Assembly (NCBI GenBank): GCA_001630475.1
Contig: KV419397.1
Span: forward strand, 813,758 to 877,757
DNA from: Sistotremastrum niveocremeum HHB9708
Lineage: Eukaryota > Basidiomycota > Agaricomycetes > Sistotremastrales > Sistotremastraceae
Direction of reading: 5' to 3'
Length of the DNA: 64,000 nucleotides
Below are positions 9,497-59,184 of the stretch, piece by piece. Both the position numbers and the translations under genes were made by a program. The notes beneath the pieces are model-generated. The model searched no databases, was not told the DNA's origin, and saw nothing but the letters and a program-made list of their open reading frames with translations. Numbering within the stretch: position 1 is the first letter of the stretch; each line of letters begins with the position of its first letter.

Positions 9497-12400
9497 ATGT
9501 CTGGAGCAGCTATTCCAAAGAAGCCTGGATTCTTTCGCAAAGTCAAGCATGGCCTTAAAATTTCGTTCTCTGGTCGTAAAGCGAAAGCTTCCATTGCGGC
9601 GGCTCCGCATGCAGTTTCATCTACGAGCTCACCGTCGACGCCTCTCGATGTGTCATCCGCGACTCCTGTGTCCAATCTTTCAACCCTTTCCCCACCTTCG
9701 AATTCCTCCAGCTTGCCTCTAGTCGGGTCTGGGGCTCAGCCAGTCGCTGTGCCCATTCCAACTGCCACGACACCGTCTGAACAGCCTGCCCTTGAAATCC
9801 TTAATACCGATATTGCGGTGACTGCAGACATTCAGAGTCAAGCGGGCACGGTGGTACCGTCATCCACTCTAGATTCCAATCCTTCGCCTACCTCGCAAGG
9901 TCAATCCGCTTCGTCGCCTGCACCCCAATTACAGCCTCCCGCTTTCCCGGAATCCTCGGCAGCGCAGCTCAAGACCGACGTCGAGGTCTCAGAGCCGCTC
10001 GTGCTCGACGCTTCGTCTGCTGCCTTGCATGTCGCATTGACTCCGACACCGTCTTCAGAGTTGTCATCCACGCTTGTAGTGCCGTCTGTCGCCATCCCGG
10101 GGTCTTCACAGACTCAGGCTCTGATGTCGGTGCCAGGTCTCGATGCTGGCACCTCGTCTGTTCCACAGGTTCCGATCACCTCTTCACACACGAGTGCATC
10201 TGTAGATCCCTCTCCCACTTCTCCACAATATTCTGCTGGCGTCACGCCATCTCCAAGATCGCAGCCCCAGGCTGGTGTCATGCCATCGGGCGTTGCCTTG
10301 GACGATACGTCTACTAGCTTGCAGGTCCCGATTGCTTCTACATCCGCCTTGCCTCCCGTCCAAGTCGAAGCAGTCGCGGCTGTAGACGATCCTTCGCCTT
10401 CTCCGCAAGCCGTCACCACATCTTCAGCTGCACTTCCGTTGTCTGATGCTGGTGCTATCGGCGCTGACTCGGGACCTTCGAAGAGCGCACCACGGGAAGA
10501 GACCACCCAGTTTGTTCAGCAACATGTCGTCCCCGCAGCTACATTTGTCTGGGATGGCCTCAAAACTCTGACCAGCATTCTGAGGGAATGCACAGATTTT
10601 CATCCAGTAATCAAGGCGGCCGCGGGTGGAGCCGTAGCCCTCATGGAGGCATTGGAGGTGCGCTGACTGAGCCAAACATACTTCTACCTAACTTCCTTCT
10701 GACATCAATGCGAAATAGCTACCGCAAGCAAACAGGAAGAAGATGGATGAAATCATCGTCAAGATACAAGAAGTGAACGAGGCTGTCAAAATCTCCGGCC
10801 AAGAAAACCTCCCTTCCCCGTTCAAGGATCGTCTTAATAAGCTAGCCAAGTGAGCGGAAATTGCAAAAGTATCGTACTCGGAACTAATCATATGACTCTG
10901 TTAGCGCCCTAGAAACCCAAACTAGTTACATCGAACTCAAAAGGAAGAACTGGTGGCCCAGGCGACTCCTGCAAGGCAAAAGAGACGCCGCGGATGTTAA
11001 CGACTCTTTACTCGCAATTGTCGATGCGTGTCAGTTGTATCAAGTGAGTCAATACTTGGCCGTTTCTGTTGTTTAGAAGCCTGAGCCGGAGCACAGCTAG
11101 GCGCACTTGCGAATGTGGAAGTCAAAGTCGAAGAGACCTTATCCGTCGCCGGACGAACGGAGGATATGGTTGCTCAATCGTTAGCAACAGTCAAGGAGAA
11201 TGCAGCTGCCATACGCAGTGATCGTGATGTACCTGCTGTTCTTGTGTATCACCGGAATGACTGCTGATGCGCTGCCAGCGTGAACTGTTGTCGACATTGA
11301 GACCGGTGGAGGCCGCCAGGTTTGACATTGCGTATACGGGGGTCTTGCGCAACGGATGCACGAAAGGCACCCGAGAATCCATCCTCCAGGAACTGATGTT
11401 TTGGAGCCAGGACGCTTCAACCCCCAAAATATACTGGCTCAACTTCTGAAAAAATTAGACCTACTAATTGTACTTTTGAGCACTCTGGAGTACTAAAAAG
11501 TACTCAAAAGTACAATTAGTAGGTCTAATTTTTTCAGAAGAATGGGATGGCTGGCACGGGCAAGACTACGATCGCATACTCGTTCTGTGAATATCTTCTT
11601 CAGCAGAACTTTCTCGGCGCAAGTTTCTTCTGCTCCCGCGCGATCGAAGAGACAAGACAGGTGCATCAAATTATTCCCACCATTGTGAATACACTAGCCA
11701 GCAATCAACATCTTCCCACTCGATTGACATCTTCCATAATTGATGCTTTGGCACACGACGACAATCTTGCAAATACAGCCATGCTTGAGAAGCAATGCCA
11801 AGCTCTTCTCTTTGATCCAGTGAAGATCAGCATGCAGGGCTTGGGCTTCTTCCCCATCATCATTATTGATGCCCTTGATGAATGCTCAGATCTGGAGCAG
11901 GTTCATCGCTTTCTCCAAACCCTCTTCCGACATGCCCCATCTCTTCCTGTGAAATTCTTTGTCTCCAGCCGACCTGAGACAGAGCATCAAAGATACCGCG
12001 CTGCACATCTGCATCATTCTTTCATCCTCCACAACATTGAAAGGGATTTAGTGAAGGCTGATATCACTAAATACCTGAATGACAAATTCAGCAGCCTCAA
12101 CACCTATAGTCAGGAAATATCAGACAATGATGTCAATGCTCTTGCTGAGCAGGCAGACAAATTGTTTATATTTGCTGCTACTGCTTACAAGTTTATCAGT
12201 GATCCACTCATCAATGATCCACATGGGCGTCTCCAACTTCTCCTGGAGTCAGATTGGGAAACAAGTCCACTTGACTCCTTGTACTCACAGATCATTGGAG
12301 ATCTCTTTGCTCGTCTTCGCCCATCTCAGCACATGTCCATGCAGCATGTCATACGCATCATAATCGCTGCTTCAGAACCCCTAACATCTCAATGCATTGC

Positions 12401-14762
12401 ATCTCTTCTCATGGGTGATATGAGTGCAAATGGTGATACTGTCAAGAGACAGGTTGAAGCACTTCAGTCTGTGTTTTATATGACTCCTGAAGATATTCCA
12501 CAAATTTCCCCATTTCATGCATCTTTCCCAGACTTTTTGAGTCAAGAGTCACGTTCAAAGCAATACTTCCTTGAATCCGGCCAGTCTCATCATATGTTGA
12601 CAAGGCAGTGCTTCACATTACTCAATGGCTTCTTCACTACCAAACAATTTGTGTCTATTCACCCTTCCACTTTGATCACTCCCACCTCAGATGCCCTGAG
12701 ATATTCTTCCTCTTTTTGGGCTTTCCACCTTTCAGGCTGCAATGATATAGATGTTGAAGTCCAGAATTTGCTCTCCTGGTTCCTCAAAAATCATATATTG
12801 CATTGGTTGGAGTACCTTCATTATCTTGGTCAGCTGCACATTGCAGTTGAGGCACTCATTCCCAGCAAGAAATCTGTGTTGGTATGTGCATGACTATAAC
12901 AATTTTGGTGAGACTGACTCTGGTGATCTTAGGGAAGATACCCATCTCTTCTCTCTTTGGTTGTAGATGCTCATAGATTTCTTCTGGAGAACTATGACAT
13001 GATAAGCAAGCATCCTGAAGAACTGTACAGATCAGCACTTCTGTGGCTGCCAAACAACTCAGAAATGAGATCCCACTATGTCACACAAAGGTCCAGTGCT
13101 CACTGGCCACAGGTGATCAAAGGACTCCATCTTACTTGGGGTGTCACTCAGCATACTCTGACAGGTCATGCTCATGGTGTTGCATGCATAGCCTTTTCCC
13201 CCCTTGGTCAGCACATTGCCTCAGCCTCTGATGACAGGACTCTCAGGATATGGGATACTGCCACTGGCCAGCAGAAGCAGATGATGAAAGGCCACTCAAA
13301 GCCACTGTCATGTGTAAAATACTCTCCTGATGGCTGGCACATTGCCACATGTGCTAATGACAGGACTGTCATAATATGGGATACTGCCACTGGCCATGAG
13401 GAGCAGGTATTGAAAGGCCATTTAAAGGTTGTGTCCTCAGTGGCATATTCTCCTGATGGAAAATACATTGCTTCAGCCTCTCATGACAAGACTGTGAGAA
13501 TTTGGGACATTGCCACTGGTTATCAGGATCAGGTATTGAATGGCCACTTGGACCGGGTGCTCTCTGTGGCATATTCTCCTGATGGGAACTACATTGCCTC
13601 AGCCTCTGCTGACAAGACTGTTATTGTTTGGGATGCTGTCACTGGCCAGCAGAAGCAATGCTTTGAGGGCCACTCATTACCTTTACACTGTGTGGTATAT
13701 TCTCCTGATGGCCAGCATATTGCCTCAGGGTCTGATGATCAGACTATCAGGATCTGGGATACTACTGCTGTCCAAAAAGAGTTGTTTGAACATCACTCAG
13801 GGATGGTGATGTCTGTAACATATTCCCACTGTGGCCAGCACATTGTCTCAGCCTCTGATGATAGGACTGTCAGGATATGGGATACAACTACTGGTCAGCA
13901 GGAGCACCTCTTAAAGGGCCACACAGATTCTGTAAGATCTGTTGCATATTCTCCTGATGACCAGCACATTGCCTCAGGTTCTGCTGACAAGAGTGTCAGA
14001 ATTTGGGAGGTTGCCACTGGCCATCAGAAGCAGGTACTGAATGGCCACTTACACTGGGTGTCCTCTGTGGTGTATTCTCCTGATGGCCAGCACATTGCCA
14101 CAGCCTCTTCTGACAAGACTGTAATAATTTGGGACATTACCACTGGCCACCAGGAGCAGGTATTGAAGGGTCACTTGGACTGGGTGGCGTCTGTGGCATA
14201 TTCTCCCAATGGCCAGCATATTGTTTCAGGGTCTGATGATCAAACTATCATCATTTGGGATGCTGTCACTGGCCAGCAGGAGCAGCAGTTGGGTGGCCAT
14301 TCAGAATGGTTCACTGTGCAATCTGTGGCATACTCTCCTGATGGCCAGCACATTGCCTCGCACTCTAAAGACAATGTTATCACAATTTGGAATGTTGCTA
14401 CTAGCCTGAGCCAAGAGGGGCAAATATTGTCAGGGCTCCAAAGACCAGTGGATCCTGCCATGTTTGTTTCTGCGGAGCATATTGGTCCTGATCCTGCCAG
14501 TGATCCTGATCCTGAGTCTGATTCTGATTCTGATTCTGATTTTGTTTTTGAACCATATTGTCCTCTCCTTTTGAAAGCGTATGATGTTGAAGCTGATTAT
14601 GATGAGCTAGTATGGCTTAAGGATCCTTTTCTGAAATCCCGTTGGTGCATCTCTCCTCATTACTCAAAAGCTAGCGTCATGGCTTCTTATGGCTCAAGTC
14701 TCTGTATTAGATATGGGTCCAAGAATCTCATGATTCTCAAAATTCCCAGTAGCACTACATGA
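9497..14762 (+). CDS. NLR-type receptor: disordered N-terminus, four-helix-like domain, NACHT, WD40; interrupted by a MITE
   Basis: Exons: 9497-10658, 10719-10849, 10905-11043, 11097-11228, 11279-12881 (holding the 98-bp insertion 11443-11540) and 12933-14762. Residues 1-30 are basic ('PGFFRKVKHGLKISFSGRK'); about 300 Ser/Pro/Ala-rich residues follow. A helical segment ('FHPVIKAAAGGAVALMEALE', 'LKRKNWWPRRLLQGKRDA') resembles the MLKL/HeLo-like bundles of mushroom NLRs. Then come 'DIAYTGVLRNGCTKGTRESI', a P-loop 'GMAGTGKTTIA', Walker B 'IIIIDALDECSD', 'FFVSSRPE' and ten WD40 repeats. Family knowledge links NACHT-WD40 proteins to fungal allorecognition and cell death; that role is inferred here. 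The insertion brings an in-frame TGA just ahead of the P-loop, so the gene is probably inactive, or makes separate products, unless splicing bypasses it. Confidence 0.82.
11443..11540. mobile_element. 98-bp palindromic MITE inserted at the NLR P-loop
   Basis: Two perfect 38-bp inverted arms (11443-11480 and 11503-11540, beginning CTTCTGAAAAAATTAG) flank a 22-nt centre. Flanking AA on both sides (11441-11442, 11541-11542) may be a 2-bp target duplication: leaving out the element and one AA gives the family sequence 'WLNGMAGTGKT' in frame. It has no coding capacity. The right arm ends in a T-run followed by CAG, a good match to a 3' splice site. Superfamily unknown. A stem-loop terminator is an alternative reading, but the position inside a conserved motif argues for insertion. 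Confidence 0.85.
13150..14410 (+). repeat. ten tandem WD40 repeats with high unit-to-unit identity
   Basis: Ten units of about 42 codons (126 nt), each with G-H near the start, 'SPDGQHIASxSxDKTVRIWD' in the middle and 'ATGHQ' at the end. Units 3, 4, 8 and 9 are especially alike at the DNA level. Highly similar WD40 units in NACHT proteins are known from HET-E/D/R-type loci, where concerted evolution and diversifying selection reshape the binding face. The next 20 codons hold an Asp/Ser run ('DPDPESDSDSDSD') and a non-repeat tail. Confidence 0.9.
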
Positions 14763-15791: not shown

Positions 15792-15840
15792 ATTTTATGT
15801 GTACATTGGTGTGTAATATTGAAAGGAATATTGTTCATAT

Positions 15841-16130
15841 TAAGGATGAACACGAGTATATACCTGCCCCACCTGAGTATCCACTCATGAGTATTTCAGA
15901 GGAAATTCTGGCCAACCATACCCACTCACTTCCCAAAAGACGGGTACCTACCTGAGTAATACCTGAGTAAAATGGCCTTTTTACCCAGGTACCCCAGGTA
16001 TGGATACCTGTTTTTGACAGTTTTTCTGGGAAAGCCAATACTCGGTACCTGTAAAAAATGAAAAAGGCAGGTACCTACTCAGGTTTATCCATGGGTACCA
16101 ATTTTTTTGCTATACTCGTGTTCATCCTTA
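15841..16130 (+). mobile_element. hAT-like MITE (copy 2), 290 bp
   Basis: The 20-bp termini TAAGGATGAACACGAGTATA and its inverse bound a non-coding 290-bp unit. It is nearly identical, in opposite orientation, to 16391-16680 (two differences seen by eye). Its own flanks do not match each other: left GTTCATAT (15833-15840), right CCTCAGAA (16131-16138). Each flank instead pairs with one flank of the other copy, which points to an inversion between the copies. Confidence 0.88.
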
Positions 16131-16390
16131 CCTCAGAACCCTACTTGCGTCGGAGTGTCATTGAGTTGAGCAAGGGGTTTTTGAAAACACAAACATGGAA
16201 CATACGTCACCTTACGCGGGGAAGGCCTCGACACACACACACACACCTCTTAAATCCGTTATCTCCGAGATAATTTCCATTTTTGGACGTTGCCGGAAGA
16301 TTTCCGACATCGGGGGATCCCTTTTCAGGTATGGTTTTGAACTCAGCTTGCGTACACCCAGTTATCAAGCCCATCGGAGTTCATATGAAC

Positions 16391-16680
16391 TAAGGATGAA
16401 CACGAGTATAGCAAAAAAATTGGTACCCATGGATAAACCTGAGTAGGTACCTGCCTTTTTCATTTTTTACAGGTACCGAGTATTGGCTTTCCCAGAAAAA
16501 CTGTCAAAAACAGGTATCCATACCTGGGGTACCTGGGTAAAAAGGCCATTTTACTCAGGTATTACTCAGGTAGGTACCCGTCTTTTGGGAAGTGAGTGGG
16601 TATGGCTGGCCAGAATCTCCTCTGAAATACTCATGAGTGGATACTCAGGTGGGGCAGGTATATACTCGTGTTCATCCTTA
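16391..16680 (-). mobile_element. hAT-like MITE (copy 3), 290 bp, inverted relative to copy 2
   Basis: Same length and termini as 15841-16130, reverse orientation. Left flank ATATGAAC (16383-16390) is the complement of GTTCATAT beside copy 2. Right flank TTCTGAGG (16681-16688) is the complement of CCTCAGAA at the other side of copy 2. Each pair would be an ordinary 8-bp duplication if the intervening 260 bp were in the other orientation. Confidence 0.88.
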
Positions 16681-17173
16681 TTCTGAGGTCCAGTCACAAC
16701 TGGACTTTTGACCCCCGGAGGGTGCAAGTGGCAACTGCCGGTCCGGTTGCCGTCCAAAATTTGGTGTGACTGGCAACTGTGACTGCGGTTGCGGTCTGGC
16801 AACCAGTCATGGCCACTTCTCCCAGTCACAACTGGTCTTTTATCAATATTTTAACCATTATTATATTATATATACTGTATATACACCTGATATGATGTGT
16901 TACATGCATATAGAGGCCAATATATGCCAGATATGTCACCATAAACACCCATTTGAGACCCAAAATACCCTCTGGGGACCCTGCTTGGGGACCCTTATTA
17001 TTATTGGTCCCTTAAGGGTCCTCGGTTGTGACCGTGGTCACAACCAGTCATGACTGTGGTTGCTGGTTGCCTGATTTTCCAAGAACCTAGGCAACCAGCA
17101 ACTGCAGTCTGGTTACGGTCCGGTTGCGACTGCCGGTTGCCACCAGTCACAGCAACTGGACCTTGGAACACTA
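16681..17173. mobile_element. GGTTGC-rich non-autonomous element, hAT-like ends, host of MITE copy 3
   Basis: About 490 bp full of GGTTGC/CAGTCAC/CAACTGG words in both orientations. The right end, read inward, starts TAGTGTTCCAAGGTCCAGT. The left end continues from TCTGAGGTCCAGT, and its outer 13 bp (TAGGGTTCTGAGG, read on the minus strand) lie displaced at 16131-16143. Joined on paper, the ends agree at 16 of 19 positions and fit the YARNG pattern. No matching 8-bp duplication of this element was found. No coding capacity. Confidence 0.65.
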
Positions 17174-17370: not shown

Positions 17371-20310
17371 TTAGAAATCACTCCCCTCAACTCCGAAATT
17401 CTTCCCATAATTCAGATACCCCTCCATCGCTTTTTGAATAGGCTCCGGGAGTGACATGCTAAGTAACGTATAGGAGATCTTCGCGTGGCCGTGAATTTGG
17501 CCTAGTTTGAAGATGTGGTGGGCTACTGAGGTCGGGTAGGATGTTTCCATGTACCATCTGTCCACCAATTAGCATTTAGTTCTCATTCAAAGAGGGGAGG
17601 GATGGGGAGAGGGATGGGTTTGGGGAAGGGACGTACCGATAATTGTATACCGTCAATCGAACAGCAGCATTCAAACTCCTCTGCACATCCCCCTCCTCAC
17701 ACCAAACCTCCAACAATCTCCCCCAAGCTTTCGCACTAAATCGTCCTCCATCAAGACATCGTACCCAACACTCCTTCGCCTCTTCCCTATGTCCCAATCT
17801 CCACCCCAACTCGCCTAGGATTTCCCATTCGGAGGAAGTCTTTCGATAAGCTAAGTGTTGAGTTTTGAAATGAGCGACTTCGGCACGGTAGATTGTCCAG
17901 ATTCGGAGATCTTCGTAGAGGCACATGAAGAGGTTGTCGAGCCATCGTTCGCAGAGTCGTTTGTTGGTGAATGAGAAGCCGTCTTGTCCAGTTCCACTGG
18001 CTTCTTGCCCTGTTTGACCGGGCTCGGTGCTCGTGCTGTCATTGTGGGCGTGGCCGTTGGGAGATTGGTGGGGGATAGAATGACCTGTCGGAGTCGTCGA
18101 AAGCGTATCGTCCGCGGTAGCATACGTCCCCGTCTCCGTCGTTGTCGATCCCGTAGTCGAAGTTCCGCTGGCACTATCCGCCGGAGTCGCAGCAGCACTC
18201 GGCTTCTCAATCCCTCCAATCTCCCCATTCCCATTCATCTTCGTCTCCCCGCCATTCGAAGTGGAAGCCGAGGCTGAAGGAGACTCAGAAGCACCGAATT
18301 CCTTCTCCCGATCACTCTCGGACGAAACCTTGATAACCGGCACCCCAGGACTCAACGGTCCATCCCCACTCGTCGAGATCCCATCGTCCGTCTCCAACGA
18401 TAGTTCCCCGTTCCTCGATCGTAGAGCAGGAGAAACGACACCTCTCGTACTAGCATTATCATCCGCCCCTCCTCCTCCTCCTCCTCTTCCATTCCTCGAG
18501 CTCAAATCGAATGGATCGACAGAAGGAACCGATGGATCAGACGAATGTGAAAGATCGGCAGAGTTTGGAGAATGGTCCCCGACGACGTCTCGCAGATCCC
18601 CTTGGGCTTTTTGCATCCTGTATTCTTCCTCCATCACGAAGACGTTGCTTCGTGCTTTGAGGAGCTCGTCCCAGCCTATCAACGAGACGAGCCTCGAGAG
18701 GATTTTATACGCTTGTGCGAATGTGCCTTTGAGCGCCGGCGCAGGGAGGCGTTGGAGCGCCGGATCGATCTACACAACACCACACATCAGCTTTCCTCAA
18801 CAAAAAGAAAGAAGTGGCAAAGAGCGTACATCCTCATCACCCCCCTCATCCAATATCCCCGTCTCCGTAACCCACCCCTTAACAGGCAACCAAGTCTTCC
18901 CCGGCACCGGCATCCGATGTAAATCCCTCTCATTAACAGTGAACATAGGACACGAATTCAGCGTTAATAACGCCATCTCCCATTCGCCTAAATCGACGTA
19001 AATCTCGGTTAGCTTGGCCCAGGTTGTGAATTCTGAGGGGGCGATTTGAACGGCTGATTTTGCGATTTTGAGGGCGGGGTGATAGGCGGATTTGGAGCGC
19101 AGGAATGTGGATTGAGTGTGGAGTAGTGTGTAGGTTGGTGGGTGGGTGCGCAGGGATGATGCGATTATTTGGATCGCTTTTACTTCTTCGTCTATCCGGT
19201 CATTCGTATCATATTTCTTGACAGAGGATGAAAGAGGGGACGTACTCATTCCGATATATGCTTGAGCTAAGAGAGCGTTTATCTCTGGCTCACGAACGGC
19301 GAGTTTCTCGAATAGATTAGCAGCTTTATCAAGCCTGAAACTATCTCCGAAATATTTCATCAAGCCCGTGACGAGATGATTCGCCGTAAGACACGCGACT
19401 TGAATCTCCGGATCACTTCCAAGTTGCCATCCTACCAGCACCTATCAGCTTTAATTGATATTTATAGAAGGAGGGGGGGGGGACCTTTGGGAAAGAGCGC
19501 CTCGGCGGCGGCTAGGAATCGTAGTTCGTCTTCTTGAGTCCTGATTGGCTCGAGCTTGCGGTATCCGACGAGTTTGTAGGATGTATCGTCTGTGTAGAGG
19601 ATTGCGCGGAGGAGAGCGGAGAGGTAAGTTTCTGTCCAAATTTGAGGAGTCGCTTCGTGTCTTCACCACCATTGTCAGTACTTATACTCAATTGAAAGGG
19701 GGAGGGGAGCTTACCGTTCACCACGAAGATCGATAACGTACGATGAGACTCCTCCTGGAATCTTAACATCCACTCTAACATCCACCCTCGAAAATGCATT
19801 GAAACAGCTACACCCCATCCCATCATTACCATCCATCCAAGCAGCTAACGCGAAGGAGAGATGGGAGACGTACCAGTATGATCCACTGCGTACTTTCCAT
19901 GAGGGTCCTTTGGAGAACCAAGCGGGTTGATCTTCGATTGCGTATGTTAGGGAATTGAGGTATGCAGCGAGTGAAGCGGAGGATGATGCGTCGACGCCTG
20001 ATACGTAGTGATATGACCCGAGCTACATGATCATCGTCAATTACTCTCTCACTTCGCCAGAAAAGATTAGGGAAGGGGGATGTACCTCTTTGACACCGTG
20101 TTTATTCGAGCTCTTGATTGTATGACATAAATCCGGTGGACCCAGTTCACGGAACGAGACTAGAGCCACCTCGTATCAGACCAGCTCTTTGAATTGATAG
20201 GAAAGAAGCGTACCAAGTGTTTCAGTACGAGAACTGAGCGATTCACCCAGTTCTACTTCGAAGAACTCTGGGATATCTTTGAACACCGCTTGAGCGGTTG
20301 GATCTGCCAT
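17371..20310 (-). CDS. ChAPs family protein (exomer subunit, Bch1/Bud7-like)
   Basis: Exomer is the Golgi coat that carries chitin synthase and a few other cargoes to the plasma membrane; ChAPs bind Arf1 and cargo. Start 20310 'MADPTAQAVFKDIPEFFEVE' leads through several short introns into 'VSFRELGPPDLCH', 'GSYHYVSGVDASSSASLAAY', 'LYTDDTSYKLVGYRKLEP' and the TPR region ('ALLAQAYIGMNEEVKAIQII', 'AYHPALKIAKSAVQIAPSEF', 'MFTVNERDLHRMPVP'). An inserted Ser/Gly-rich stretch of about 180 residues follows 'DLRDVVGDHSPNS', then TPRs resume at 'LCERWLDNLFMCLYEDLRIW'. The end is 'LNYGKNFGVEGSDF'. The low-complexity insert is unusual relative to the compact yeast proteins. Identity is confident; fine exon limits are less so. 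Confidence 0.88.
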
Positions 20311-20387
20311 TCTTCCTTTCAGTCACTAGGACTGGGACTAGTACTCGTTATCGTCGTCTTCTAATTCGCGTTTGGTTGTGGATGCAC

Positions 20388-20395
20388 TTATATAG
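20388..20395 (-). promoter_or_regulatory. TATA-like box upstream of the ChAPs gene
   Basis: TATATAAG on the minus strand, about 80 bp before the ATG at 20310, a plausible core promoter distance. Confidence 0.45.
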
Positions 20396-20680
20396 GTGCC
20401 AGAGCAAGAGCTGCGCGCTGTGCGACGCGTCGGTAGCAGAATGAGAAAGTGGGCGGAGTTTACATCGTCTCAGGCCCTTACCCTCACTCATTCAACGGTC
20501 CCTTAAAGCCTTCACAATGTCGCTAGCAACGAAACGGACTCCAGACGAGGCTTTAAGGAGCACGAGAAAGGCTTAGGGTGACTATGTGGTACGTTCAGTC
20601 GACAAACCCTGCATTTGAGGGCCAAGAGACAGCCTATCAGCCTCTTTCTCGGACTTTCACTCTCGTCCCTCACACTCGAC

Positions 20681-20936
20681 GCTATGAAGGAGATATCCAG
20701 CCCTCCTGTTGAGGTATCCAACCCTCCATAGTCGCTCTCTTTGCTATGAAGCGGGTATCCAACCCCGCTGCTGAGGTATCCAACCCTCCATAGCCATCTC
20801 CCCGCTCTATGAAGGAGGTATCCACTCCTCCTGCTGAGGTATCCAGCCCTCCATGGGCGATGTTTCTGCATTGCTCGAATCCCTACTATGAGGCAGGTAT
20901 CCAGCCCTGCTGTTGAGGTATCCAGCCCTCCTTAGT
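20681..20936. repeat. four 52-nt tandem units with conserved fold
   Basis: Units 20681-20732, 20743-20794, 20806-20857 and 20885-20936 are each exactly 52 nt, separated by 10, 11 and 27 nt. Each starts CTATG and ends CATAG or a close match (outer stem) and holds two hairpins with the same 8-nt loop, TATCCARC or a near variant. Hairpin 1 (unit positions 8-13 with 22-27) keeps pairing while its sequence changes: pair 10-25 is G-C, C-G, G-C, C-G and pair 11-24 is A-T, G-C, A-T, A-T. Hairpin 2 (31-34 with 43-46) is invariant GAGG/CCTC. The array lies about 370 bp upstream of the ChAPs start. Function unknown. Confidence 0.85.
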
Positions 20937-21901
20937 TTCACCTCGCTTGCTTGTCTCGAGAAACCTGATCTCCTTCTCGGCTCGCATACTAGTCTTTCGT
21001 ACCTGACCAGTCCATTTCGTCTATTTGCCCGGTACTGCCTCTGGCGTGCGTGAACGCATACTCATTTCCCTTCGCCCCTCCTCTCTCGTACCCCTGTCTC
21101 CTTTTTCGCTGCGCACGGGCCATCCATGACGATTACGTAATGCTCCTTCCGACGAGTCGACGCTCGGCCGACAGGCACTAGCTTTGCAAATGCTACCCTA
21201 CATTGCCTGCTTGCCTCCTATACAGTATACCATAGCAGACTTCCTTCGACTTACTCGTTTTTCCATTCCTCCTTTTATGTGATGTCATTGGTGTGCCGAA
21301 ACTATGCTCTGTATCATATTACCATGCGCTCTTTCCGTACTCTTTCCTCCGCCCCTTTTCAGAACTTATCCTCCTATATGTTGTGTCCTCTTCGGGATGC
21401 CTATATATATTGTCTTGGCCACTACCTCCTCCACCGGTTCCTGTGTAGACTCTGAGATTGGGTAACAATTCCCCCCCTTTGGCACGAGTTTACCTGGTTC
21501 TGGTTAGTGTAACTGTGCGCTTAGCGAGGTTACACGCAGCCGTTGCTCTCATGAAGGGCGCTACACGGCTTTAAACACAAACACAAACACAAACACTCAG
21601 AGTTTCTGGCATGCTCTTAGGCATAATGCATTGCATAGTAGACTACGAGTCAAGTTAAATATCTTAGATTGCTTATTGTAGTACTGATGATGTATCTAAC
21701 GCTCGAACTCAATACAGCTTGTCCATTGTCCACCGTTCGCTTTCGATTATTATTATTATTCGCTCATCGCGTCCAGGAACGCGGGCGCTTAGTTCAACGT
21801 TACCATCATCATCATCGTTTCTCATTCTGGTTCCGACGAGCTCGTCGACTCTTTCAATCATCAGAATTGGGTATCTGGGAGTATTGAGAAGATAAGACGA
21901 G
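20937..21901. other. intergenic region, no gene recognised
   Basis: Nearly 1 kb of CT-rich sequence between the 52-nt repeat array and EXO70. It contains a TATATATATTG stretch near 21410, a run of seven C near 21472 and an AAACAC repeat (about 21572-21595). A degenerate solo LTR is conceivable but not supported by ends or a target duplication. Confidence 0.4.
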
Positions 21902-24900
21902 ATGGAAGATGAAGCTGAAGTCGAACTCGTACGTCCCTTGAATAATATCGATTTCAATATTTGTGGATGCTAATGCCACTTCTGCTTCCCTTGTTCTCCC
22001 TCGCTCTCATACACATAAATCATTCTATGCTCATTCTATGCTCTTCTGACTCTGTATCATCGAATGCTCTCTCATTACCTGCCTCCACTCGTCCAACCGT
22101 TGGCTCTGGCTCGTCTGGCTCGGCTACCCCCTCGCCTGCCGGTTCCCAGCTCGACCAACACCTCCTCAAAACCCGGCAAATAACCCTCCGCATGACATCC
22201 GTCCTATCAAAATTCGATTCTAGACTAATCAAACTCGAGAAATCCATCGGACCTTTATATTCTAGTACTAGTTCTTTGACTCGATTAGCTACTAGTACGT
22301 CCCCCCCTTTCGTCTTCTGCTCTCCCTTGGATGAGGATGAGGATGAGGATGAGGATGAGGAGCTCGCTGACATGGTGTAGATATTGATGCGACGTTGGAG
22401 AGTATAAGGGGTGTCAAGAGCGAGCGTGGTATCGAAGCTGAGGAATCTATAATTCTACGCGGGTATGTCCTTCCCATTCCCTCTTTCAGTTATAATTCAT
22501 TTTTGATGATGATGTGCGTAGACCTAGAATGGGAGAGCTGGATATCTACATCGACGCAATCGAGAAATTGAACAAGAATATTCTGTTTCAAGGTGATAAC
22601 GATCCCGAAGGGAATATCCAAGATTCCGTACGCCCCTCCCCTGTCATTAATTACTAAATACTGATGATGTACGTAGGCACGACTTTTGGAGACGGGTACA
22701 AAGAAGCTGTGTCAACTCTTCACATCCCTAATCTCCTCAGCTTCCCCTCCCCCCTCCGCCCCCTCCCTCTCCGCATCCCTCTCCACCCCTCCCTTCCCCC
22801 ACGCAACTCTCCAATCCCTCCTCCCCCTAATACAAACTCTCCGATCTCTCCCGAATCCCTCCACACATCCCTCCCACCCTTCGTCCTCTTCTATACTGGC
22901 AACACTTAAAGAGGCGACGAGTAGTTATGTGGATATAAGAGGAAAGTGGGCGAGGGCGAGTTTGGAGGGAGGGGGGAATGTATTGGATAGGGTTAGTAGT
23001 AGTGCTGAGGGCGAGGGGGGGAGGGTGTTTAGAGGGTGGTTTGAGGGACTCGTTAATATCGCTGCCGTAAGTCGCCGACCCTCCCTCTCTTCAATTCTTT
23101 TATATTAATTGGGACTAATGTAGGACGAATACGACCTCCTCCAATCTCTATCTCCCCTCCCTCCCCTCCTCCCCTCCTCCTACTCCACCCTCCTCTCCCC
23201 CCTAATCTCATCATTCACATCTTCCCTCAACGCTCTAACCGGCTACCTAAAAGCTCCGCCGAGGTTATCATTGACGCCAGGAACGAAACATAATACCACC
23301 TTTTTGGCTTTAGATATATATTCTACTCTCACGGACCTCCAACCGGAGTGGGACGATATACTCGCCAAACCGAGCAATAATAACCTGGGAGGAGGAGGGA
23401 ATAACGGGGTGAAAGAAATGAAAGAGATAATTCAGTCGTCGGGATTGAGAGGGATTGTGTTGAGGAGTTTCCCAGAGCTTTTGGTGGATATACAAACTAG
23501 TGTTAGTGGGATGAAAGATGGTGGGACGGGGGTTGCTGATATTACTTATTCTGTACGTTCCTCTCACATTTCCTCCTCCGTTTCTTTTCATTCCCTGTTT
23601 TCTCCCTTGGTTCTTTCTCCTCCTTTCTGTTTGCTCGTATTCTCCCACTCGTTTCTCTCCCCTCTCTCTCCCTCTTCCCTTTCTCATCTTGTCAACCGCG
23701 AACTGACGAGCTCACTTTGTTCGCTCGCAGACCGTAAAATACCTAACACTCCTCCCATCCCATCAACCCCAAATCCAATCCGCACTCTTAACGCTGGGGG
23801 ATGGGAACTGGAAAATGGGTGCGGGGATGAAGAGTTCTATGAAGAAATCTGGGAATCAAGGAAATGTGGGCGGAGGGAAGGAGGAGGGAGTTGTGCTTTT
23901 GGAACATTATACTTGTGAGTTTGGCGTTTCTTCAGCATTCTGATTCTTTCGTTTTGTTTCATATTTTTCTTTCTTTCCGTTCTTTCTCTCGTTCTTCTCT
24001 GCTTTCTTATCTCTTTCGCTTCGTCCATTCACCCCTTTGTCGAATTTTCCCCCCTTCCTACCTTTCCCACCGCATCGCACCCCGTCCGTCAAGTCCATTC
24101 CAGTCCGCCGCGTGCGGGTCGCTTCCTCGCTCTCGCTCTCCGCTCTCCGCTCTCCCAATCCACATCTACACCGCGTCTTCTCGCGTCCTTCCGAACCCTT
24201 CCGATAATCTCCCAACGACGCGACGCATCTCCTCGCGCCATCCCGTCCTTGTGCACTTCCGCTTGCACTTTCGCTCGAGACTTGGGACCCTAGAGCCTCA
24301 GAGCCTCACGCCGAGCCGAATGAGATGAGATGAGATGAGATGAGATGAGTCTTGCGTTGCGTTGCGTTGCGGTGTACCATGGTCCGTGGTCCGTGGTGTT
24401 CCAGGATGCGAGATGGATGATGAATGATGAATGACGATGGGGATGATAGAGACGATGCCAGCGACTGATGGGACGATGACTGTGGGATTACATGTCTACC
24501 AATCCATCGAACCTACACCGAATCCACCAAATCCACCAAATCTGCTAAATCTGCTGGATTTCAAAGCCACTGGATGCGTGGCACACTACACTGAGCTCGG
24601 AATCACCCTCTCGAGCTGGGAGCCGCAAGTCATAAAACAAAAAAACGGGATCTAATTCACCTGGGTTGGGTTGGAATACGTCCTGCGTTGCCTTCAACTT
24701 TGAAGTTTGGCCTTCGAACTATATCCTCCATCCGACTCCAGATCCTGGCTTCACATCATGACATGCCATTACTGTCGGTATATTGGATGACGGCCGACGA
24801 CGTGCGAACATCTCGTGGCGGGGTGGATTTCTGGATCTCATACTTTGCTTTGCTTGGATCCGGGGTGGGGGTGAGGAGAGTTTTTTTTTCTATTTTTGTG

Positions 24901-26916
24901 CCTTTTTCGTTGATTTCGTTTCTTCGTTTCTTCTGTTTCTTTCGTTGTTTTCTGTTCTTTCGGTTCGCTTCGATTCGCCGCTCCTCGCTCCTCAGCATCG
25001 CTATCGCCATCGCCGATTGCATCTGATCCCGCCTCCCGCCTCCCTCGCCCCCTCGATCCTCAGTCCATAAAAATGGAAATTTCGGTTTCGACGGGGCTAG
25101 GAACTCGGAACTCAGGGATCCGAGATGATTGTGCGCCCGTACCTTCGTCTTTTTCGTCTTTTTCATCTTCTCTCATCGCGCATCCCGAACTGCACCGAGG
25201 ACGACTCCCCTCCCCCACTCTACCCGCTGCTCATTAAAATGAGCTCTGGTATTGAAGATGGCTAGGCAGCTCGGAGATATTCTCATTCCTTCTCGTTCAA
25301 CTCTTTCATTTGTTCGTATCTTCTCATCGCCCGTCGGTCATCGCCTTCGCCTTCATCGCACTTCGCACGTCGCACGTCATACCTCCCATCACCTCGCCCA
25401 CCCGATCTACATCGCATCTAAATGTATGGTAAATAATCGGGCTGGCTAGGAACTCGGAGGTCGGAATTCAGAACTCACCTCACGAACTCGCGTGAACTCC
25501 ATGTCCTCCTGTCCTCCTGTCCTTTATATCATCCATCTCCTCCGACGCCCTCGATCCTCTCGGGCTCTCGGTGCTCTCCCACTCTCCCAGTGAGTGGAAG
25601 AGTGGGAAATGGAGAGATCAGGACGTTCCTGATGATTAAATGATATTTAACTGGTGCATGGACGTGCTCATGTTCTGCATCAGTGAATATCCGTGGACAT
25701 GTGTGAACATTAGGCATTGTGTGTGCTGTGATTTAGGAGCCACGAGTCGCAGATGCGAGTGTTCCGGAGTCGGCGAACTGCTCGGATGTGGGATGTGGAC
25801 CACCTTCTCCCTTCTACCTTCGGTCATCGTCCTGCTCGCGAGATGCGACTCATTCTGATGTCATGTCGGAGTGTCCACCGCAGTTCTCTAGTTTCGCGTT
25901 TCGCTTTTTGATTTTCTCGTTGTGCTTTCTATTCGCCTCTTTTCTTTTATTCCTCGTTCATTTGTGCAGTTGTTCGTTGTTCTTTCTCCTTAGCTCCAGC
26001 CAGCTATCGTTTTCTCCGATGTGTAAGCGAAAGTTGAGCTCGATCTCGAGATGAACATTGGCAATCCCACTCCCACTTCCACCTCCGATTCCTTCCATGC
26101 CTTCTTTTCCCTCGTTCATTATCTCTCTTCTCTCACTCTCCAACGACACATAAACTGACTCATCTCCAACAGACGACATAATCCAAACCCTCGTCCAAAC
26201 ACTAACATCCCTAACACACAAACGCCCCCCAAACCCCGGCTCATCAACTCCCTCCCTACCCCCCTCTACCCCCCTCGCACCCTCCCAAAGCACATTCGCC
26301 TCCCCCTCCCTCTCCTCCATATTCCTCCTAAACAACATCCACCACCTCCGCTCAACCCTCCTCCTCTCCCCCCAATCCCCAATCGACGACCTCCTCTCTC
26401 CCCAAACCCAAGACCTCCTCAATTCCTCTTATAGAACATCAAAAGCAGAATATCTAGCTACGAATTTCTCGTACCTTCTTTCGTTTTTGAGTGATGATGG
26501 GAAGAGTGGGGGGAAGGGGTTGAAAGAGAAGTTTACGAGGTTTTTTGATGTGCTTGATGAGGTTTATGAGAGGCATAGAGTTGCGAGGGTTTTGCCTGAT
26601 AGTGGGGGAGGGGGGGAGGGGGATGAGGAGAGAGAGGCTAGGGGCGATTTGGGCGATGAGGTTGTCAGACTTGTTGTTCCGCAGTTTGAGAGGTTTGTGG
26701 GGAGGGGGAAGGAGAGGGAGTTTAGTAAGAGTACGTATCTATTCTCCTCTCGCTTATCTTCGGGATTCTGACTGGGTGCTTTTGCAGATCCGTCGAAATG
26801 TGCGTCAATTTCTCTGTGTGAAGTGGTGACGTGGCGTGGCTGATAGATTGATGTGTGTAGATATCAAGATGACGCCTGATGAAGTCGAGCGGAAATTACG
26901 CGATATGTATCGATAG
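21902..26916 (+). CDS. EXO70: exocyst subunit Exo70
   Basis: Exo70 tethers secretory vesicles at growth sites by binding PI(4,5)P2, Rho GTPases and the exocyst core. Exons: 21902-21928, 22150-22294, 22381-22462, 22522-22627, 22677-23066, 23124-23552, 23731-23914, 26173-26730, 26788-26799, 26861-26916; they sum to 663 codons without a stop. N-terminal coiled coil 'KTRQITLRMTSVLSKFDSRL', then 'ARLLETGTKKLCQLF', 'TVKYLTLLPSHQPQIQSALL', 'VVLLEHYTYDIIQTLVQTL', 'SIFLLNNIHHLRSTL', and the family C-terminus 'NPSKYIKMTPDEVERKLRDM'. Length (662 residues) is normal. Odd points are a 2,258-nt intron, a 12-nt microexon, and exons that begin C-rich and end G-rich. The first-intron boundary is the least certain. 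It converges on SEC31. Confidence 0.88.
23915..26172 (+). other. 2.26-kb intron of EXO70
   Basis: Donor GTGAGT at 23915, acceptor CAACAG ending at 26172; the flanking exons join as 'HYT|YDII'. Other introns here are about 46-220 nt. The intron holds long T/C-rich tracts, pentamer microsatellites and a repeated GGCTAGGAACTCGGA word (about 25095 and 25443). No convincing nested gene was found on either strand; short frames are compositionally biased. Confidence 0.75.
24321..24371. repeat. two adjacent pentamer microsatellites
   Basis: (TGAGA) about five and a half copies at 24321-24349, then (TTGCG) four copies at 24352-24371, both inside the long EXO70 intron. Confidence 0.9.
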
Positions 26917-33914: not shown

Positions 33915-34049
33915 GTTGTTGGCTGCTGTTTGGTCACATGAGATCATCATCATTCCGGATCCCGACAACACGATTCCGACTCGTCAAGCGACTCGTCGTC
34001 GTCGTTCAACCTTCAATTTTTTGGCTTCCCGGTCTCAAGTCCAGTCGCT
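33915..34049 (+). repeat. duplicated 5' flank, cluster A copy 1
   Basis: GTTGTTGGCTGCTGTTTGG...CATGAGATCATC...TTCCGGA...ATTCCGA, directly before the first tandem F-box gene. It resembles 35814-35919 and 37675-37789, showing that the duplicated unit included upstream sequence. Confidence 0.7.
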
Positions 34050-35699
34050 ATGAGGTTTCCCGTTGAAATCATAACGATGATCATCGAAAATGTTCGCCGG
34101 TCTCATCCACCCGGTGTTTTCTTCGCGAATCAGTTCCGGGAAGAAGAGCAAACGCTTGCTCGCCTTGCTCGAGTCTCGCACACGTTTCATCACGAAGCAA
34201 CAAAAGTTCTCTTCTCTATCGCGACAATTTGGATATGCGAAAGAGAACAATCGAAGATTGACAAACCGTACGACGACGCGGACGAATGGAAGAGACTATA
34301 TGGACGTCGCCGAGACGTCGACTCGGACGACCCAGACGCTCCAGGCGATCCCCCGCCTAAGGAACCGAGACCTATGAGATTCGAGAATGTCTTCAAGAAG
34401 CTACAGGCTCTTAACCAAAACTCGTCGCTAATTGAAAGACATGTCCATCAGGTCTACATAAGCGTCAATACCCCCGACTACAAAGTCCTGGAGCAGATAC
34501 TGCCTCAGCTCGGAATCTTTCTCCAGCATGCCACCTCCCTTCAACACCTGCACATTCAGACAGGACCGCAAAGCGAAATCGATGGGGTCAGGCAGCTGAC
34601 GGCCGAAATCGCGCACGTTACACTCCCAAAAGTCCAATCGATTAAAATTTACTTCCACGGTGGGATGCACAGGTGGGACCTACCCGACCAAGAGCAGGAA
34701 GAAGAAACGTACGATGCGCTCATGTCATTCATCTCCTTGAACCCATCGCTAGTCCATGTCGACCTAAAGGGTATCAAAACTTGGCCGGATGCCCCCGATA
34801 CGCCTGCCGGAACTCTTCTTCCTCAACTGAAGAAATTTAAAGGTTCCATGTGTCTTATGGAGGCAATCCGCCTGGATGACCTCGAGGAGGTCTGGATTGG
34901 ATGGGAGGAAAGTGAGCAGAGCGATGTCTGGGGAATCAACGTACTCAACGTGAATGCGGGTACCCGATACGAACATCTGCGGACCTTAAGCTTCGATCTG
35001 TCAGGCCCGTTTGCTCACCTGATGAAGCTCTTTGATCTTCTCCAATGTCGTCATGATTTTCCAAACTTGGAGCTATTGTCCGGATGCAAACTTACTTTTC
35101 CACTACCCGAGCAAGTGAGTCGTTTCAGACTGCACGACCTAAAACATGCTGATATTCACTCAAAGAGACTACACGATGAAAGACAAACTTTCTGGAGTAA
35201 ATTCCCCAAACTGAAAACCATTGTTGCCGTCTATTCTGGCTTCGACACCCCGTTCGAGGCTCCCAAAGTTCACACTCACAAGCCTGAGATCAATCTCAAC
35301 TTCCACTTCATAATGAGACATATATTCCCCAGGCTTGAAGTTCTCGAGCTCGCGGAGGCTTATCATGACAGTCCTCGGGACGACACATCTTACAGTCTCA
35401 GCTTCCAATGCTACCGCTACGCCAATAACCCGCACATTCTTCCAGGGGAGTGGGACTACACAGTCAACCGGTTCGGCCGACCCAGAGTCATAGAGACACG
35501 TTACGAAGCTTGCCGTTTTTCGGATTTGGGGATAGCAGAAGTATTAGGAAGTTGCGCCTTGGATAAAAGGGACCGAAGGGACTTCAGCGCTTCTCTCGGG
35601 GTGAGCAAGGTCGACGTCTGGAGCCTGATAGAGCAGGATCAGGAACGAAAGGCAGCAAGTAAGGAGTATTTTGCCGCTAAAATATGGGCGATGTGGTGA
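34050..35699 (+). CDS. F-box protein, tandem cluster A paralogue 1
   Basis: F-box-like N-terminus 'MRFPVEIITMIIENVRRSHP' with '...LARVSHTFHHEATKVLFSIATIW', the Skp1-binding region in family terms. Irregular leucine-rich sequence follows ('SLQHLHIQTGPQSEID', 'SLVHVDLKGIKTWPDAP', 'LELLSGCKLTFPLPEQ') and the end is 'YFAAKIWAMW'. A 51-nt intron (35115-35165) is inferred because paralogue 2 has a stop inside the same stretch; here it is free of stops, so retention would add 17 residues. Spliced length 532 residues. Closely related to the next two genes in the same orientation. SCF adaptor role inferred from the family, substrate unknown. Confidence 0.85.
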   Translation: MRFPVEIITMIIENVRRSHPPGVFFANQFREEEQTLARLARVSHTFHHEATKVLFSIATIWICEREQSKIDKPYDDADEWKRLYGRRRDVDSDDPDAPGDPPPKEPRPMRFENVFKKLQALNQNSSLIERHVHQVYISVNTPDYKVLEQILPQLGIFLQHATSLQHLHIQTGPQSEIDGVRQLTAEIAHVTLPKVQSIKIYFHGGMHRWDLPDQEQEEETYDALMSFISLNPSLVHVDLKGIKTWPDAPDTPAGTLLPQLKKFKGSMCLMEAIRLDDLEEVWIGWEESEQSDVWGINVLNVNAGTRYEHLRTLSFDLSGPFAHLMKLFDLLQCRHDFPNLELLSGCKLTFPLPEQVSRFRLHDLKHADIHSKRLHDERQTFWSKFPKLKTIVAVYSGFDTPFEAPKVHTHKPEINLNFHFIMRHIFPRLEVLELAEAYHDSPRDDTSYSLSFQCYRYANNPHILPGEWDYTVNRFGRPRVIETRYEACRFSDLGIAEVLGSCALDKRDRRDFSASLGVSKVDVWSLIEQDQERKAASKEYFAAKIWAMW

Positions 35700-35813
35700 A
35701 GCTTCGTGTGCATCAGACATTGAAAAAGGTAGGGCAGAGGGGGAGCGAAGACTTCGGAACCTTTATTATGATGTAGAGGTGCTATGACCAATGGCTATAC
35801 TTAACACATGAGA

Positions 35814-35919
35814 ACGTTGTTTGCTGGAGTTTGGCCGCGTGAGATCGTCAGTCTTCCGGAGTCCGACATCGTGGTTCCAAGTCGACCTCCTAATTTTTTC
35901 TGCCTTGCAGGTTACGGTG
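35814..35919 (+). repeat. duplicated 5' flank, cluster A copy 2
   Basis: TGTTTGCTGGAGTTTGGCC...GAGATCGTC...TTCCGGAGTCCGACAT...TTTTTTCTGCCTTGCAG. Very similar to copy 3, including the TTTTTTCTG..TT.CAG stretch immediately before the ATG, which looks like a 3' splice site and could mark a 5' UTR intron. Confidence 0.7.
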
Positions 35920-37557
35920 ATGACCAGGTGCCTTCCTGTTGAACTCATCGCAAGGATATTCGAAAGCGTTCGTGATCACCATCCTCCCGGTGTTTTCTAC
36001 CCCAAACAGTTTAGGGGGGAGGAGCGAACTCTTGCTCGCCTTGCTCGCCTTGCTCGACTCTCGCGAACGTTTCATCACGAAGCCACAAAGGTTCTCCTCT
36101 CTATCACGTCAATATGGATGTGCGAGAGGGATCAATCGGAGATTGACACATACTATGATGCGCAGGAAGAGTGGCAGAGACTATATGGTCGTCGCCGAGG
36201 GCTTGACTCGGATGACCCAGCTGAGCTCGAGGATCCGCCGACTAGAAATAAGAGACCGATGAGATTCGACAAAGTCCTCGAAAAACTTCAGAGTCTCAAT
36301 CGGAACCCATCTTTTCTTGCTAAACATGTCCGCCGTGTCTACATCAGTGTCAACACCTCTGACTGCGTGGCCCTCTGCTACATCCGACGTCAGCTCAGAA
36401 TCTTCCTCCGTCATCTCACCCTCCTTCGACACATTCATCTTCAAACAGGACCCCAATGCAACATCGAAACGGTCGAGAGTTTGACGGCTGATTTCGCGCG
36501 CTTAGCATTTCCCACGATTCAGTCCATCAAAGTTTACTTCCACAAGGAATTTCACAGCTGGGATTCACCTAACTTCGAACAGGAAGAGACGTACAATTCA
36601 CTCGCGTCATTTCTCGCCTCGAACCCCTCGCTAGTCGATATTGATCTCAAAGGTGTCAAACCGTGGCCGGATACCTACAACACTTCGGTGGGGAGCCTTC
36701 CTCGGTTGAAGAGATTCAAAGGCTCCTTTAATCTCATAAAATTCATCCAACTCGGCGCTCTCGAGGAAATTTGGATAGGATCAGAGGAAAGTGTTCAGAA
36801 CGACGTCTGGGGAATAGACGTACTCAACGTGACTCCTGGCACGCAATACGAACACCTGCGGACCCTTAGCTTCGATCTTTCAGACGATTTTGATAGTCTG
36901 ATCAGCCTCTTTGACCTGCTCAAATGTTCTCATGATTTTCCTCATTTGGGACTCCTCTCCGGATGCAAACTTGCTTTTCCGATGCCAAAGCAGGTAAGTT
37001 CGTCCCGATCTGTATGAATTAAGACGTGCTGATATCCCTTCAAGAGACTATATGCTGAGAGAGAAAAATTCCAGATCAAATTCCCAAAGTTGCGAACAAT
37101 TGTTGCTGTATGGTCTGGCTTTGATGCCCCATATGAGGCACCAAATTTGCACGACAACATTGACCTCCGATACCATTTTATCATGAAACATCTGTTCCCA
37201 AGTCTCGAAGTGCTTGAGCTCGCGGATGCCCATCACGAAACTGCTCGCCACGAAACATCATACAGTATTACCTTCCAATGCTACCGCTACAGTGATGACC
37301 CGCACGACCTTCCAGGGCTGCGCGACTTTACGATCAACTCGTGCAGCCGACCAAGAGTCGTAGAGACACGCGACGAAGCTCGTCACTTCGCGCAATTGGG
37401 AATAGCGGAAGTCTTTGGGACTTGCATCATGGGAGAAGAAGCAGAACGTTCCCCATCCCCGAGCCCAATTGAATTCTTCCGCCGTCTCGAGGATGATAAG
37501 AAGCGACAGGAATCCAGGGAAGAATACTTTGCTCGTCAGAGATGGGCGATGTGGTAG
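35920..37557 (+). CDS. F-box protein, tandem cluster A paralogue 2
   Basis: Start at 35920 ('MTRCLPVELIARIFESVRDH'), chosen because it matches paralogues 1 and 3; an upstream in-frame Met at 35821 lies in the duplicated flank. Exons 35920-36993 and 37045-37557 are separated by a 51-nt intron that contains a stop codon, so splicing is required. This fixes the intron position for the whole cluster. The domain order matches paralogue 1: F-box, then 'LLRHIHLQTGPQCNIE', 'SLVDIDLKGVKPWPDTYN', 'LGLLSGCKLAFPMPKQ', 'HLFPSLEVLELADAHHE', and the end 'YFARQRWAMW'. 528 residues. A small tandem duplication gives 'LARLARLARLSRTFHH'. Function beyond F-box membership unknown. Confidence 0.87.
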
Positions 37558-37674
37558 AGCTTTGTGCGCATCAGCCGTTGAATTTGATAGGGTATAGGGT
37601 GGATGAGACATTGAGAGTGTTTTATTACAATGATATAGGCGTGCTACAGGTATGAACAATGGCTATCATAGAGG

Positions 37675-37789
37675 AGGATGTTGTTTGCCGGAGTTTGGCT
37701 GCATGAGATCATCGTTCGTCCGAACTCCGATATCGCGGTTCCGAGTCGCGGGCATCCTCCTGATTTTTTCTGGCTTTCAGTTTACCGCG
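37675..37789 (+). repeat. duplicated 5' flank, cluster A copy 3
   Basis: GGATGTTGTTTGCCGGAGTTTGG...GAGATCATC...CCGATATCGCGGTTCCGAG...TTTTTTCTGGCTTTCAG, aligned with copies 1 and 2. Confidence 0.7.
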
Positions 37790-58065: not shown

Positions 58066-58133
58066 CTCAGAGGGACAACAGCTAAACGAGGTAGCAGTCG
58101 CTGGGGGAGTTTGGGCGCTAATCTTTAGCTCGC

Positions 58134-58455
58134 TTATTGCTGTTTGCAAAAGTATTGGCGGAGGCCGAAAATCGCCAAAATCGGCGCGCCGCGGCTTGGA
58201 ACGTTCAGAACGCGAGATCTCGACGAATAGAGTAGATACAAACATGATTTTTGTTGCAAATGACAGCTAGAGTGAACCTGGAGGGCTTCAGGTCAAAGTT
58301 TGAAGCAAAACGATGCAGAAATGGACGAGCACGAAAATGGGGGCTGTCTGGGGTATGTGGACAATTCTGAGCGAACGAGAGTAGTTATCGACAAGCCGTT
58401 TTCATATTTGGGAAGTAGAAGTTCGTTGGCAGGGCGCCAAGAGGAATGGGGAGGG
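58134..58455 (+). repeat. 322-bp inverted repeat, left arm
   Basis: Starts TTATTGCTGTTTGC and ends GAGGAATGGGGAGGG. Base-for-base identical by eye to the reverse complement of 58863-59184. It begins 69 bp upstream of the F-box ATG at 58065, so it contains that gene's promoter. Confidence 0.92.
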
Positions 58456-58862: not shown

Positions 58863-59184
58863 CCCTCCCCATTCCTCTTGGCGCCCTGCCAACGAACTTC
58901 TACTTCCCAAATATGAAAACGGCTTGTCGATAACTACTCTCGTTCGCTCAGAATTGTCCACATACCCCAGACAGCCCCCATTTTCGTGCTCGTCCATTTC
59001 TGCATCGTTTTGCTTCAAACTTTGACCTGAAGCCCTCCAGGTTCACTCTAGCTGTCATTTGCAACAAAAATCATGTTTGTATCTACTCTATTCGTCGAGA
59101 TCTCGCGTTCTGAACGTTCCAAGCCGCGGCGCGCCGATTTTGGCGATTTTCGGCCTCCGCCAATACTTTTGCAAACAGCAATAA
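58863..59184 (-). repeat. 322-bp inverted repeat, right arm
   Basis: Inverted copy of 58134-58455, ending 102 bp before the stop of the F-box gene at 59287-60543. No terminal target duplication was seen, which argues against a simple foldback transposon. Confidence 0.92.

Follow-up and report, generated by a model that had tools for sequence, protein, structure and literature searches.

Four 52-nt hairpin repeats with matched stem changes between the ChAPs and Exo70 genes: a possible structured RNA or DNA element

RNAs of the bacterial CsrB/RsmB type are multivalent, with several hairpins that carry one repeated loop motif. Promoter minisatellites are short tandem repeats found in promoters, in which a core is conserved and binding sites recur. 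Fungal structural RNAs supported by covariation were reported by Gao, Jones and Rivas in 2021 and comprise intergenic, intron and UTR elements (PMC8216456). As that screen is described, all of its genomes are from Ascomycota and the alignments are cross-species (PMC8216456). Mitochondrial double-hairpin or repetitive hairpin-forming elements (DHE/RHE) are short repeats with one or two hairpins, sometimes arranged in tandem and mostly intergenic (PMC2800124). Going by the account given there, they are the nearest published kind that we found for the array described here.

The array is part of a 64-kb stretch of DNA (the window). Its four units (U1 to U4) and three spacers are listed in order.

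20681-20732, plus strand: U1, 52 nt; outer stem 20681-20686/20727-20732, hairpin 1 at 20688-20707, hairpin 2 at 20711-20726
20733-20742: spacer 1, 10 nt, dissimilar to the other spacers
20743-20794, plus strand: U2, 52 nt; hairpin 1 at 20750-20769 (GCGGG/CCCGC), hairpin 2 at 20773-20788; 16 of 16 pairs standard
20795-20805: spacer 2, 11 nt
20806-20857, plus strand: U3, 52 nt; hairpin 1 at 20813-20832, hairpin 2 at 20836-20851; outer stem with two T.G wobbles
20858-20884: spacer 3, 27 nt
20885-20936, plus strand: U4, 52 nt; hairpin 1 at 20892-20911 (GCAGG/CCTGC, outer G.T), hairpin 2 at 20915-20930

These coordinates agree with the original prediction of four 52-nt units separated by 10, 11 and 27 nt. 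The sequence-conserved core of the unit has 50 nt, with 38 of 50 columns invariant, and the 52-nt reading is this core plus one non-conserved pair. Any two units differ at 6-8 of the 50 positions (84-88% identity). Two 21-nt hairpin monomers make up each unit; GGTATCC-type cores start 21 nt apart in all four units. Chance is excluded as the source of the repeat, because TATCCARCCC has seven matches in the window (both strands), all seven within the array, where 0.17 were expected by shuffling, and because Tandem Repeats Finder assigns a score of 224 to the row 20680-20854 (U1-U3). The 15-pair layout of the 50-nt core, allowing at most one break, occurs at only four places on both strands of the 64 kb, and these are the units.

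With two hairpins in one short discrete unit, each copy is built like a double-hairpin or repetitive hairpin-forming element. In contrast to promoter minisatellites, the repeat is a hairpin dimer with matched arm changes and unrelated spacers. As in DHE/RHE, the units are short intergenic hairpin repeats, and complementary substitutions are sometimes seen in DHE/RHE as well (PMC2800124). Unlike DHE/RHE as described in that source, the array is nuclear, has only local copies known, and varies mainly in stem 1; the sponge elements among DHE/RHE have conserved stems and a few loop differences (PMC2800124). The array resembles the RNAs of Gao, Jones and Rivas in being intergenic with covariation, but it is known from four paralogues in one genome, which those RNAs, as presented, are not (PMC8216456).

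The array has a protein-coding gene on either side, each with a TATA-like site.

17576-20310, minus strand: ChAPs (Chs5p-Arf1p-binding protein) gene, 3' end nominal; ATG at 20310, N-terminus MADPTAQAVFKDIPEFFEVELGESL
20387-20394, minus strand: TATA-like site TATATAAG, 77-84 bp before the ChAPs start codon, a consensus match only
21402-21409, plus strand (same on minus): TATA-like site TATATATA, 500 bp before the Exo70 start codon, likewise a consensus match only
21902-26771, plus strand: Exo70 exocyst subunit gene, 3' end approximate; MEDEAEVEL read as the first exon, with a GTACGT donor after it

The ChAPs assignment is based on Pfam PF09295 in three separate ORF stretches. For Exo70, two of the four ORFs tested match PF03081, one with E 9.2e-16 and the other with E 0.0015, a match that falls short of the curated cut-off. 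Between the Exo70_C-matching stretches 23124-23918 and 26154-26771 (plus strand) there is an unexplained distance of about 2.2 kb, more than is usual for a fungal intron, which could reflect an insertion, an error in the gene model or an intron that is indeed long. We take ChAPs and Exo70 to be nuclear genes, and the locus is nuclear rather than mitochondrial by its gene content. The distance from the array to the start codon is 371 bp for ChAPs and, as its start is read here, 966 bp for Exo70. Because the array lies upstream of both the minus-strand and the plus-strand start, its neighbourhood is a divergent promoter region. The original prediction had placed it upstream of ChAPs and near no known RNA gene, which is correct (the latter according to Rfam), but had omitted that it is upstream of Exo70 as well. 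As the array is also upstream of both TATA-like sites, it is untranscribed upstream DNA of both genes in the simplest model. In the window, TATATATA occurs twice per strand, and TATATAA three times on the plus strand and eight times on the minus strand.

Such a location, a divergent promoter region between two TATA-like sites, would suit an array of eight protein-binding sites in the DNA of the shared ChAPs/Exo70 promoter, with the core GGTATCCARCC and short inverted arms as dyad half-sites. As part of the same reading, a factor would bind the double-stranded DNA cooperatively, on one helix face. TATCCA is invariant in all eight monomers; the 21 bp between paired sites, constant in the four units, amount to two turns of the helix, and about four turns separate the sites that follow (41 and 42 bp). 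The last gap (58 bp) is, however, half a turn off phase, and the matched variation of the stem-1 arms is left unaccounted for. We know of no fungal factor for this core, and we consider an array of DNA sites possible but rather unlikely.

It had been claimed that each unit can form an outer stem and two hairpins. RNAalifold, run on the 52-nt alignment alone, returns the same fold: an outer stem of 6 bp (P1), a hairpin of 6 bp with an 8-nt loop (P2, stem 1) and a hairpin of 4 bp with an 8-nt loop (P3, stem 2). This fold can be drawn in all four units, although one of the eight hairpins has one broken pair. On the plus strand, 62 of 64 pair cells across the four units are standard; the broken ones are an A.C in U1, where stem 1 meets its loop, and a T.T in the outer stem of U4. 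The proposed CTATG/CATAG outer stem is perfect in two units, but not in U3 (T.G wobble) and U4 (T.T mismatch). The 8-nt loop TATCCARC, said to be constant, is present in seven of the eight hairpins; hairpin 1 of U3 has TATCCACT instead.

Stem 2 has no variation across the four units, so that it provides no covariation evidence and is silent on structure. Stem 1 varies as originally listed, including the G-C to C-G swaps: pair 10/25 is GC, CG, GC, CG and pair 11/24 is AT, GC, AT, AT. Three pairs covary over the 52 positions, two of them in stem 1; within the 50-nt core the number is two. The outermost pair, 1/52, has four pair types (GT, GC, TG, AT) but adds little, because 4 of 24 re-deals of its letters also pair in all four units (hand count). 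In a placement test, the 12 variable columns of the 50-nt core were moved randomly to columns with the same consensus base in 100,000 trials. At most two broken cells were found in 1.0% of the trials, at least two covarying pairs in 1.2%, and both together in 0.078%. In a shuffle control, the covariation score, the percentage paired and the number of cells changed on both sides were each reached by 3 of 500 shuffles. The other two of the five measures are unremarkable: the count of covarying pairs was reached by 36 of 500 shuffles and that of pair types by 79 of 500. A scan of 2,058 helix registers gave 12 with two covarying pairs, all 12 on the axis of stem 1. When the 3' partners were slid by 1-3 columns, 36-73% of cells were paired and at most one pair covaried. 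The tests of pairing share a weakness: the four sequences that suggested the fold are also those on which it was tested, and they are paralogues, between which sequence may be exchanged.

Matched changes can arise in another way. Template switching can create and repair stems, and 94.7% of 9,931 two-step compensatory changes are given as uninformative about the mutation process (PMC8794818). Quasi-palindrome correction in yeast is described in highly transcribed DNA and is raised by RNase H2 loss (PMC3820800). The array could then be a functionless hairpin repeat that was multiplied locally and whose arms are kept complementary by template switching (quasi-palindrome correction), since this process, as published, makes matched stem changes without RNA selection (PMC8794818, PMC3820800). 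The two pair changes of U2 are adjacent in the stem, as after one switch. Conversion between units would likewise fit the 50-nt core, in which columns 9/24, 28 and 40 support three mutually incompatible groupings of the units. Under DNA parameters, the minimum-energy fold contains both hairpins in U1, U2 and U4, together with P1 in U1 and U2; U3 retains hairpin 1 beside a different second hairpin (z-scores for U1-U4: -1.44, -3.49, -0.55, -0.37). Repair of the arms does not, however, explain the invariant loop cores and the invariant stem 2.

The spacers bear on the same question. Similarity has sharp edges at the outer stem; the units are alike and the spacers unrelated. Therefore, the unit is under constraint, or else copying took in nothing but the foldable unit, and the latter would give sharp edges in a neutral repeat as well. 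If the spacers were duplicated together with the units, their dissimilarity would require constraint on the units, which a neutral repeat lacks. For the comparison, spacers were taken as the 12 nt between 50-nt cores. If the first two had been duplicated with the units and had changed at the unit rate, four or fewer matches in 12, under the more favourable of two anchorings, would have P of about 4e-5. Ten local comparisons of spacers and flanks gave no clear similarity (lowest shuffle P 0.096). Among anchored comparisons of 12-nt flanks, 2 of 12 reach 7/12 matches (random mean 3.1, 95th percentile 6), which may be a faint hint of shared origin. Taken as a whole, we rate a neutral, locally multiplied repeat as possible, though on the unlikely side.

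The phrase "signature of selection on structure", used in the original prediction, stands insofar as constant loops go with matched changes, in one helix only. It is too strong, because two to three pairs covary in four paralogous units with two of five shuffle measures unremarkable, because U1 and U4 have another RNA minimum, and because template-switch repair of quasi-palindromes gives the same pattern (PMC8794818, PMC3820800, as described there). The four-unit array is a real feature, small and unusual, and the evidence for constraint on its structure is suggestive and not decisive.

Folding energies are divided between two structures. Among single 52-nt units folded as plus-strand RNA, two of four have the three-way junction as their minimum, namely U2 and, without the outermost pair, U3; on the minus strand, this holds for U2 only (one of four). 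In plus-strand U1 and U4, a competing loop-to-loop helix wins over the three-way junction by 3.7 and 3.6 kcal/mol, respectively. Six base pairs of this helix, between columns 11-16 and 32-37 of the 50-nt core, are formed in all 24 cells and show no covariation. The competing fold was taken as the minimum of U1 and then evaluated over the whole length in all four units. Compared with the three-way junction, it is favoured in U1 (-15.9 vs -13.1) and disfavoured in U2 (-7.6 vs -19.6), U3 (-9.6 vs -16.2) and U4 (-7.9 vs -11.8); the RNA minimum of U4 itself is a variant of the competing fold. It is conceivable that the competing helix could make each unit a two-state switch. Single-unit RNA z-scores (50 nt, U1-U4) are -2.77, -3.22, -0.95 and -0.57 on the plus strand, those of U3 and U4 being unremarkable, and -1.94, -2.92, -1.08 and -0.92 on the minus strand. 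The whole array (266 nt on the plus strand) has a z-score against shuffles of -3.05 on the plus and -2.23 on the minus strand. By consensus energy, the minus strand is slightly ahead (-17.86 vs -17.52), whereas the covariation term of that energy is better on the plus strand (-1.38 vs -0.31). There are six non-Watson-Crick cells. Read on the plus strand they are four G.U wobbles and two breaks, and on the minus strand one wobble and five breaks. This count leans towards a plus-strand RNA; the lean is weak, because it is a 4:1 split only (one-sided sign test about 0.19, by hand).

The minus strand was also considered for its reading frames. In 20682-20935, each unit is open there for 15 codons, (M/K)EGWIPQQ..., to a TAG, and the self-complementary unit ends frame both strands. 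The repeats could thus code for minus-strand peptides, with the 21-nt period as seven codons. Frames from core position 3 are open to the unit-end TAG in all four units; three units read MEGWIPQQ(E/R)(G/E)WI(P/S)(P/A)S-stop and U4, which has no ATG, reads KEGWIPQQQGWIPAS-stop. However, the self-complementary CTATG/CATAG ends yield an in-frame ATG and TAG on both strands by construction, and the minus-strand start codon is lost in U4 just as the plus-strand stop codon is lost in U3. Third codon positions account for 5 of the 11 variable columns inside the frame (hand count), the TATA-like site of ChAPs is downstream of the array, and Pfam has no match for a minus-strand ORF of 139 codons that crosses the array in a different frame. 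Peptide-coding mini-ORFs are therefore judged highly improbable.

A covariance-model search for further copies had been suggested and was carried out on the 64-kb window; it retrieved no further convincing copy. Run unfiltered, the model reported 23 matches at E values of at most 10; U1 to U4 obtained 77.8-82.2 bits, and the match ranked after them, in which several pairs are broken, obtained 13.4 bits (E 0.037). The four copies are thus within 256 bp and none was found elsewhere in the 64 kb, which makes a densely dispersed mobile element unlikely; a neutral repeat, likewise, would not belong to a family of that kind. Rfam has no match at the gathering threshold in the whole window. For 20400-21200 there are two sub-threshold matches; the one in the array is CsrB, on the minus strand, with 10.7 bits against a gathering threshold of 71 (E 1.5). 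As this cmscan match is at chance level, CsrB/RsmB serves as a comparison of how such an RNA works, and homology is not claimed. ARAGORN found no tRNA with the bacterial code, and a scan of 20300-22100 for bacterial promoters and terminators gave nothing informative.

Sequence collections were searched with patterns. The 28-nt degenerate pattern, the 21-nt pattern and the ChAPs protein patterns have no match in viral contigs, a collection not meant for fungi. In genome contigs, the 28-nt pattern has one match, in a Bifidobacterium MAG, which was taken as chance, its surroundings (251 bases) being without a unit. A distant blastn search of plasmids gave no match. The misses in the viral, prokaryote and plasmid collections say little, because none of these is meant to hold fungi. 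Among the matches listed in a full-text literature search with the motif letters, there was no recognisable fungal promoter study, and two 12-nt loop-stem strings were absent from them.

Other repeats occur in the window. Inverted repeats of at least 12 nt are absent from 20300-21400, around the array. At 15835-16686 there is an inverted repeat with 301-nt arms, 98% complementary and 250 nt apart. CAGGTACCTG/CAGGTATACCTG palindromes are abundant in its region, starting at about 15540, and the repeat looks like a foldback or MITE-like element. Each of its arms has CAGGTATCCATACCTG, which matches the hairpin model in part (11.5 bits, E 0.18), probably by chance. A second inverted repeat, at 58134-59184 (338-nt arms, 98% complementary, 375 nt between), adjoins the minus-strand ORFs 57061-58266 and 59602-60609, which are alike by eye. 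A near-perfect long palindrome is found at 11443-11540 (49-nt arms, zero loop, 92% complementary). Three tandem copies of a gene-sized unit of about 1.87 kb are present at 34010-39436, with 60-86% identity in the stretches reported, and 12933-14762 is a WD40-repeat ORF with a 126-nt period and ten stretches that match PF00400.

From the observed units, their possible pairing, their covariation and their location, we tentatively propose that the array serves as a platform for a protein, as RNA of the plus strand, after local duplication that was followed by constraint on loops and pairing; this is a possibility rather than an expectation. A hairpin module of 50-52 nt would have been duplicated locally to four copies in the shared ChAPs/Exo70 promoter region. 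The module may since have been held to its sequence in the two loops and stem 2 and to intrastrand pairing in the outer stem and stem 1, while the spacers drifted. The plus strand of the array would be transcribed, and the product would be either a noncoding RNA or a long, alternative leader of Exo70. Each unit is predicted to fold into a compact three-way junction that displays two UAUCCARC loops. The eight loops together might form a multivalent binding platform for an RNA-binding protein, and the array may have an effect on its neighbours ChAPs and Exo70. The RNA platform accounts for the matched stems, the constant loops and the lean of the wobbles, but it faces the rival fold. The original prediction of a possible new structured RNA can be upheld as a possibility; it is unproven, the fold being the RNA minimum in two of four units only. 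In its full form, an undescribed fungal RNA made as a ChAPs-Exo70 intergenic plus-strand transcript, with four three-way junctions of two UAUCCARC loops each as an eight-site protein platform, the proposal is doubtful and should be regarded as improbable.

What the array means depends on whether selection keeps the pairing. If it does not, the array is a clean small case of replication template switching that imitates RNA covariation in one genome. If the Agaricomycete assignment is right, the array is in a phylum outside the covariation screen described in PMC8216456. If selection does keep the pairing, the array would be a candidate for a new structured RNA, or for a DNA element that depends on structure, flanked by two secretory-machinery genes.
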